Both the position numbers and the translations under genes were made by a program. Below the pieces are notes generated by a model. It did not search any database, was not told the origin of the DNA, and saw only the letters and a list, made by a program, of their open reading frames with translations. A stretch of DNA of 64,000 nucleotides from contig JAIEPW010000016.1 of NCBI GenBank assembly GCA_019748195.1, forward strand, positions 62,001-126,000, written 5' to 3'. The DNA is from Bryobacteraceae bacterium. GTDB lineage: Bacteria; Acidobacteriota; Terriglobia; Bryobacterales; Bryobacteraceae. How positions within the stretch are numbered: the first letter of the stretch is position 1; each line of letters opens with the position of its first letter. This document shows, piece after piece, positions 57,987 through 59,263 of the stretch.

Positions 57987-58487
57987 ATGAACAAACAAGC
58001 ACTTCAAGCGCAACGGCAGTACTTCCAGATGGTCCACGGCGTGACAATGCGCCTCATCGGCAGCTTCCAGGATCAGGACCTCGGCTATCATCCGAAGCCG
58101 AACATGCGGTCGATCAAGGAACTGATCTATCACATGTACTCGATGGAGAAGGTGCTCGCGCAGGGCGTGAAGGAAGGGAAGATGTCGCAGGAGATCGAGA
58201 ACCTGGCGTCGCCGGAATCGCAGGAGGGCAAGGCGAAGCTGGCGGAGCTGAACACGGTGGCCGCGCTGCAGGACTACGCGGCGGCGTGCCACAAGGCTTT
58301 GGATGAGGCGGCGGAGAGCATGACGGATGAGCAGTTGCAGCAGCCCTTGGAGGCTCCTTACGGGACGTTTCCGACGTCGCAGTTTTTCATGTTTATGTAT
58401 GACGAGCACTGGCATCACCGGGGGCAGTTGTACACGTACGCGCGGCTGATCGACCGGGAGCCGCCGATGTTGTATGACTATCAGTAG
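57987..58487 (+). CDS. DinB family protein
   Basis: 166 aa, cytoplasmic four-helix bundle. Metal-binding histidines lie in MRSIKELIYHMYSMEKVLAQGV (first) and FFMFMYDEHWHHRGQLYTYARLI (H-W-H-H, C-terminal helix). The family coordinates a divalent metal and often works with bacillithiol/mycothiol-like thiols. A ribosome binding site GGAG lies upstream. It ends 13 bp before the methyltransferase gene, suggesting co-transcription. Confidence 0.88.
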   Translation: MNKQALQAQRQYFQMVHGVTMRLIGSFQDQDLGYHPKPNMRSIKELIYHMYSMEKVLAQGVKEGKMSQEIENLASPESQEGKAKLAELNTVAALQDYAAACHKALDEAAESMTDEQLQQPLEAPYGTFPTSQFFMFMYDEHWHHRGQLYTYARLIDREPPMLYDYQ

Positions 58488-58500
58488 ACGCTGAGTCCGG

Positions 58501-59217
58501 ATGCCTTCCACGCCTGATTTTCTTCGCGAGCGGGTTCGCGCCGCCTATTCGGCGGCGGCGTGCGAGCCCGCGTCGCGGCATCCGTTCCCGGTGGGCGCGG
58601 AGTTCGCGGCAAGCGTGGGGTACCCGTCCGCAGTGCTGGCGGCGCTTCCGGAAGCGGCGGCGGCGTTCGCGGGTGTCTCCAACGTCGCGCTGCAGGCGCC
58701 GCTGCGGCCGGGGATGATGGTGGTCGATTTGGGATGCGGCGCGGGCCTGGATGCGCGGATCGCGGCGGAGCGCGTGTCGCCGGGGGGCGTGGTGGCGGGG
58801 GTCGATTTCAGCATGGAGATGCTGCGCCGTGCGCGCCCGGGCGGCGGCGCTTGCTTTCTGCAGGCGGCCGCGGAGTCGCTGCCGTTTCGGGATGCCTTCG
58901 CGGACATGGTGCTGATCAACGGGCTGCTGAACCTGAATCCGTACCGGGAGCGCATTCTGCGCGAGGTGGCGCGCGTGCTGAAGCCGGGCGGCGCGCTGTT
59001 CGGGGCGGAGCTAATTTTAAGGGAGCAGTTGCCGGAGGAGTTGAGGTCGGGCGAGGAGAACTGGTTCTCCTGAATCGCCGGCGCCAGGGACGCAGGTGCG
59101 TTCCGGGATGAATTGAACCGCGCGGGGTTTAGCGAAGCGGAGATTCTCCGGACATTCCGCAATGCGCGGACCAAGCATCCGGTAGTGGCGGCGGCGGAGT
59201 ATCTGGCGCGCCGCTGA
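58501..59217 (+). CDS. ArsM-like SAM-dependent methyltransferase, candidate selenoprotein (in-frame TGA 59071-59073)
   Basis: The first 190 codons show HPFPVGAEFAASVGYPSAVLAALPEAAAAFAGVSNV and the SAM motif VVDLGCGAGLDARIAAERVSPGGVVAGVDFSMEML, then LPFRDAFADMVLINGLLNLNP and LKPGGALFGAELIL, as in arsenite methyltransferase-like proteins. After ENWFS comes TGA, then in the same frame IAGARDAGAFRDELNRAGFSEAEILRTFRNARTKHPVVAAAEYLARR and TGA at 59215. In this family a Cys normally precedes I/V-x-GA and a C-terminal helix-strand follows, so the TGA stands at the Cys position. A hairpin follows (59087-59104). Options are selenocysteine, a nonsense mutation from TGC/TGT, or a sequencing error. Termination at TGA would give a 190-aa protein lacking its C-terminus. 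Confidence 0.65.
59087..59104 (+). promoter_or_regulatory. SECIS-like hairpin downstream of the in-frame TGA
   Basis: GGGACGC (59087-59093), loop AGGU (59094-59097) and GCGUUCC (59098-59104) form a 7-bp stem with one G-U pair, extendable by C84/C85 with G105/G106 around a bulged A. The loop begins 20 nt after the TGA, inside the range required for bacterial SECIS elements, and AGGU matches the GGU loop core I recall from the E. coli formate dehydrogenase element. Confidence 0.45.
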
Positions 59218-59263
59218 GAGCGAACGAAACTCGATTGCCGCACGTCCAATACACTGGAGATTC

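Follow-up and report, generated by a model that had tools for sequence, protein, structure and literature searches.

The window, a stretch of 64,000 nucleotides from a Bryobacteraceae bacterium, carries on its forward strand a gene (58501..59214, stop codon 59215-59217) whose predicted product is a selenoprotein methyltransferase of 238 residues with selenocysteine (Sec) at residue 191. A sequence-only reading of this DNA had described a frame interrupted by TGA and continuing for 47 codons to a second stop, and this is what we find: the frame 58501-59217 runs for 190 codons to an in-frame TGA at 59071..59073 (+ strand), continues through a coding tail of 47 codons (59074..59214, + strand) and ends at a TGA at 59215-59217. 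Pfam assigns the product to the class I methyltransferases (Methyltransf_11, 70.1 bits). A DinB-family gene (57987..58487) lies 13 nt upstream on the same strand and is possibly co-transcribed with the methyltransferase gene. No DinB relative was found in the other 27 neighbourhoods examined of the closely related genes (clade A, see below), and the DinB gene is therefore probably outside the system.

Within the order, 257 genomes were searched and 28 clade A genes, the window gene included, were recovered from 27 of them; members from the order align along almost the whole gene with an identity of at least 51%. Each of the 28 contains exactly one internal stop, a TGA at one common codon within the motif W-F-[SAT]-U-[IV]-A-G-A, and none has Cys at that codon. 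One genome (G170) carries two clade A copies (L040, L060), both with the TGA, and a phylum sample of 396 genomes added four further clade A genes (L107-L110), again all with the TGA. The TGA is also present in a looser group, 34-42% identical (clade B), in all seven members first read (L053, L055, L061-L065). Canonical ArsM relatives have Cys at this column, as do all 15 other homologues read (14 from the order and L018). In the homologue comparison proposed by the sequence-only reading, the column thus separates canonical ArsM relatives, with Cys, from the close relatives, 31 of 31 with TGA; the loci are top matches and not a random sample. In a wider scan of genome contigs the sole close full-length match, L017, was a contig of G164 that is identical over the gene; G164 belongs to the same family as the window's genome. 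A sequencing error at 59071-59073 is very unlikely because the TGA is shared with 31 other genes, 27 from the order and four from the phylum sample.

The residues encoded after the TGA are, judged by their substitution pattern, under purifying selection. In ten hand-chosen clade A pairs the dN/dS of the tail was 0.05-0.24, and over 27 rows of alignment A1 mean pairwise identity was 0.660 after the TGA versus 0.555 before it. An AlphaFold2 model built from 27 sequences, with Cys in place of Sec (pLDDT 93.0, pTM 0.91), places a helix (198-207) and two strands (211-219 and 229-237) after residue 191, which are the last helix and the last two strands of the model. Foldseek ranks 1-13 were all ArsM/AS3MT entries. 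With VIA-align the model reached Z 23.9 to CrArsM (2.1 Å over 195 residues) and Z 23.5 to CmArsM, compared with Z 19.9 and lower for other class I methyltransferases. The window protein is thus predicted to have an ArsM-type class I methyltransferase fold.

A hairpin follows the TGA at 59087..59104 (+ strand), with a 7-bp stem (arms 59087-59093 and 59098-59104) and an AGGU loop at 59094-59097, the stem starting 13 nt and the loop 20 nt from the TGA. The SECIS-like hairpin announced by the sequence-only reading is as it was described, and it also lies within the published bSECIS constraints as given in an excerpt of PMC13188914 (loop of 3-9 nt, stem of 4-16 bp, G in the first two loop positions, 16-37 nt from the UGA, energy at most -7.5): loop 4, stem 7, AGGU, 20 nt, and -11.4 kcal/mol for the 22-nt segment (z -3.8 against dinucleotide shuffles; bare stem -10.0 kcal/mol). 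The 45-nt fold of the window sequence has a z of -0.22, which is ordinary for its composition, so that the hairpin of a single sequence proves little and the case is carried by comparative evidence. A search of Rfam at 58950-59250 gave nothing relevant, only one chance match at E 3.5.

Across relatives, the strict bSECIS model fits 19 of 28 clade A genes (6.2 expected from synonymous recodings), seven of seven in clade B (0.8 expected) and one of 15 Cys homologues (0.9 expected). Nine clade A hairpins fail it, five of them with the same stem but weaker energy and four (L038, L044, L045, L048) with no good perfect stem. When folding was compared with recodings that preserve the protein, in segments of unequal length (27 and 36 nt), mean z in the 27-nt segment was -0.99±0.13 for clade A (n=28), -3.48±0.21 for clade B (n=7) and -0.10±0.22 for the Cys homologues (n=15). 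Seven 36-nt segments gave no excess in clade A (mean z -0.18 to +0.18). The one directly after the TGA, which contains the whole hairpin, gave -0.18; the clade A signal therefore depends on the narrower segment, whereas that of clade B is seen in both (-2.61 and -3.48). Fourteen clade A genes have Ala at offset 21 (the seventh codon after the TGA). Two wobble positions form pairs in 12 of these, and all four Watson-Crick types are represented, versus 5.9 expected (p 0.00015, an optimistic value because the Ala subset was chosen after the two stem registers had been seen, and one obtained from mutually related sequences). In the 14 genes with Gly at that offset the stem register is shifted by one.

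The sequence-only reading had noted that no sel gene lies in the window. The matches are all on other contigs of the genome, with none on the window's own contig (C154), and selA (484.9 bits), selB (361.3), selD (369) and tRNA-Sec (72.8) all score above their curated cut-offs, so that the machinery looked for is present. The selD gene of this genome (L106:3518, G000:C106) has an in-frame TGA of its own, in the context KAAG-U-ASK, and by eye this TGA is followed by a hairpin-like sequence, TCCAAA-GGT-TTTGGA. Presence of selB does not discriminate clade A genomes (23 of 27) from the others (183 of 230; p 0.6). Four clade A genomes lack a selB match; three of these (G133, G164, G104) have tRNA-Sec nonetheless, and the fourth, G237, which is 64% complete, has a match to neither. 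Among the 11 genomes checked for it, tRNA-Sec was found in eight and not in G237, G521 or G466. In a single genome (G131, locus L079) some 2.1 kb separate the methyltransferase gene from selB, a stretch that by eye contains two-component-like genes.

An excerpt of PMC3877260 names Cys72, Cys174 and Cys224 of CmArsM as its arsenic ligands. In a profile alignment to CmArsM (4kw7, 4fr0), on which the CmArsM numbering was counted by hand, Sec191 falls at Cys224, Val59 (codon 58675..58677, + strand) at Cys72 and Gly141 (codon 58921..58923, + strand) at Cys174, and both Val59 and Gly141 are found in all 32 clade A genes. By this alignment, clade A keeps one of the three arsenic ligands, and keeps it as a predicted Sec. 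The inclusion rule for ArsM in the part of PMC5552862 seen here asks for at least three of four cysteines at CmArsM positions 44, 72, 174 and 224; the window protein has at most two, position 44 being outside the HMM alignment. Calling the protein ArsM-like, as the sequence-only reading did, holds for fold and ancestry but not for the arsenic site, where two of the three cysteine ligands are missing, and the name arsenite methyltransferase is therefore not warranted. The same genome also encodes, on another contig, an ArsM with all three cysteines (L073).

The association extends beyond clade A. We compared 90 distinct genes, leaving out L019-L025, the duplicates L017 and L111, and rows in which the first or third motif has more than three gaps. 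Residue 191 is TGA in 53 and Cys in 37. None of the 53 TGA genes has Cys at 59 or 141, and all 53 have Gly at 141, whereas both other cysteines are present in 35 of the 37 Cys191 genes and neither in the remaining two (L117, L122). Five TGA genes have a Cys close to the 72 position but not at it, at residue 57 (L041, L051) or 61 (L050, L052, L119), and in L127 and L128 a Cys at residue 146 is likewise near, but not at, a ligand position. In the tree, from which the minus-strand gene of L127 was removed as a duplicate of L117, clade A (32 rows) has support of 100/100, clade B (21 TGA rows and the two odd Cys rows) 96/78, and the three-Cys group (35 rows) 100/98. The Sec/Cys label changes only three times on this tree, and the ligands may thus have been swapped just once, long ago, with Cys regained later. 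Clade B (L053, L055, L061-L065, L112-L116, L118-L121, L124, L127-L130) resembles clade A in its TGA column, in having neither Cys72 nor Cys174 and in its Gly at the 174 position; it differs in sequence (34-42% identity), in its separate branch, in a DCF motif in the tail of several members, and in a hairpin that is very strong in the seven tested. At L127 (G261:C123:8500-13000), an ArsM-like gene of the Cys type and one of the TGA type are found on opposite strands, some 1.2 kb from each other, and the Cys-type gene has neither Cys72 nor Cys174, as if Sec had reverted to Cys.

ArsM/AS3MT (PRK11873/NF008823; CmArsM 4fr0, CrArsM 5evj) shares with the window protein the class I fold, the SAM motif and a C/U-x-x-G-A motif around the 224 position. 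It differs in having three arsenic ligands instead of one, and in length (CmArsM chains of 377-383 residues versus 238). The window protein scores 140.7 bits against NF008823, whose cut-off is 263, and is below the cut-off of every NCBIfam model among the 25 matches listed of 27. Its four best NCBIfam matches over the methyltransferase part include ArsM_AhpD_UU (NF041537; 157.6 bits, cut-off 510), ArsM_DUF2284_UU (NF041536; 126.2, cut-off 575) and MTase_UXPK_star (NF047649; 154.6, cut-off 460), which are described as fusions or double selenoproteins. The window protein is stand-alone with one Sec, and its frame ends at 238 residues with no second selenium domain fused to it. ArsM-like proteins with Sec have been published before, as far as excerpts of the sources go: a GOS survey lists a Sec arsenite-methyltransferase-like family (PMC2398784; row figures 8, 4 and 245), two reviews list such proteins (PMC9312934, PMC13188914), and the latter also gives the UxxG motif. 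The Sec arsenite methyltransferase WP_011987699.1, taken from a passage of PMC13188914 and compared at the motif only, shares the Sec in U-x-x-G. What looks new is a stand-alone clade that keeps one of the three arsenic ligands, as Sec. Among the papers listed in literature searches none described a Sec clade of stand-alone proteins that lacks Cys72 and Cys174, and a prior description is possible. A literature search on arsenosugar gave no match.

We consider it very probable, on this comparative evidence, that the gene encodes a selenoprotein methyltransferase of the ArsM superfamily with Sec at residue 191. The earlier proposal of selenocysteine in place of a stop is thus supported by the conserved TGA, the machinery, the hairpin and the tail. 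TGA is of course a stop in this code, and 10 of the 27 clade A genes counted use it as their final stop too; however, a true stop or nonsense mutation followed by a decaying tail is hard to reconcile with the same TGA in 28 of 28 genes from 27 genomes, with a tail that is better conserved than the front and has low dN/dS in all ten pairs, and with a model whose final helix and final two strands lie in that tail, and we regard it as exceedingly improbable. Reading of the UGA as a near-cognate Trp or Cys without selenium would by itself likewise keep the frame open. It is nearly as improbable, because the column in the homologues read that lack the TGA is Cys and never Trp, the excess of hairpins is found in TGA genes and is absent from Cys genes, and the genome has the full Sec machinery. 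A nonsense mutation and a reassignment of TGA to Trp were rejected on the conserved TGA, the selection on the tail and the Cys-never-Trp column.

What the selenoprotein methyltransferase does is a separate matter. Sec191 would be inserted at the UGA by the genome's own SelA, SelB, SelD and tRNA-Sec by means of the following hairpin, and its selenolate would take the place of CmArsM Cys224, holding the atom to be methylated beside SAM. Since Val59 and Gly141 stand where CmArsM has Cys72 and Cys174, a single selenolate probably holds the substrate. The substrate could be a metal(loid) species already bearing other substituents or, alternatively, a chalcogen attached to Sec, for instance Se, Te or sulfane sulfur. 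A one-selenolate methyltransferase of metal(loid)s or chalcogens is accordingly our tentative proposal from the sequence comparisons, one that may well be right or wrong. Ordinary arsenite methylation, with Sec in place of a single Cys and the missing ligands drawn from other residues or from small thiols, would agree with ArsM being the closest family by fold and sequence, with the listing of Sec ArsM relatives among selenoproteins in parts of PMC2398784 and PMC13188914, and with the Cys at residue 57 in two and at residue 61 in two of the 32 clade A genes. It is nevertheless unlikely for clade A given the invariant Val and Gly, the reported loss of activity in CmArsM of C174A on arsenite and MMA and of C72A on arsenite (excerpt of PMC3877260), and the three-Cys ArsM that the genome already has. 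Less likely still is the last arsenic step, from dimethylarsenite to trimethylarsine, which needs one ligand. Dimethylarsenite binds one Cys according to the same excerpt (PMC3877260), and the organism also has a canonical three-Cys ArsM, but no arsenic gene was found among the conserved clade A neighbours, a minority of which are profile-annotated. More broadly, it is conceivable, and we offer it with reserve, that clade A belongs to a selenol-only ArsM branch in which the three-thiolate site was traded for a single selenolate and a new activity, often with a dedicated nucleoside-phosphorylase-like partner; such an enzyme might, for example, methylate a monodentate metal(loid), or else selenium, tellurium or sulfane sulfur carried on Sec.

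In many selenoproteins Sec serves as a redox nucleophile, frequently with a Cys next to it. Here, in a methyltransferase family, Sec would be the sole ligand remaining at the metal site, and among the genes compared it occurs together with the loss of the two other ligands. Clade A is therefore a testable case of one selenolate where three thiolates act elsewhere. The absence of the two arsenic-holding cysteines hints at a different job, and may point to selenium-dependent methylation of a new kind. Gene callers that read TGA as a stop would shorten the gene, and ArsM surveys requiring three cysteines would overlook the clade.

In 13 of the 28 clade A loci a nucleoside-phosphorylase-like gene lies within 1.6 kb of the methyltransferase gene, and in 11 it adjoins it (gap below 140 nt). 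Ten of these 11 are on the same strand, with the phosphorylase upstream in six and downstream in four. The three members scanned belong to the PNP_UDP_1 family, and the nearest solved relatives are purine nucleoside phosphorylase and methylthioadenosine phosphorylase. The gene is rare in the order (44 of 257 genomes at E 1e-45) and occurs in 17 of 27 clade A genomes versus 27 of 230 others (Fisher p 1e-8, computed like all Fisher values ignoring relatedness, and with a profile, A2, made from clade A neighbours, which favours detection there). The window's genome has none by profile search at E 1e-45, and the phosphorylase is therefore not essential to the reaction. We infer a methylation cassette in which, in the relatives, the adjoining phosphorylase-like enzyme may process either the nucleoside product derived from SAM or a substrate that is itself a nucleoside.

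Twenty further phosphorylase loci were also inspected. In eight of them (L148, L149, L153, L154, L158-L161) a different class I methyltransferase adjoins the phosphorylase (grouped by BLASTP, two scanned), of the MNVRQHWEKVYG type in L148, and the phosphorylase thus seems to pair with interchangeable methyltransferases; in L152 it is found with a third kind. A role of the cassette in metal(loid) or sulfur stress is plausible. Metal transporters lie near three clade A loci, as P-type ATPases in L081 and L092 and a cation efflux protein in L038. ArsR-rhodanese fusion regulators are found beside clade A genes at L080:8930-9604 and L081:10228-10920, and such a regulator also occurs in three of the 20 further phosphorylase loci (L151, L156, L166; one scanned); in all five loci it is possibly the sulfur or metal sensor of the cassette.
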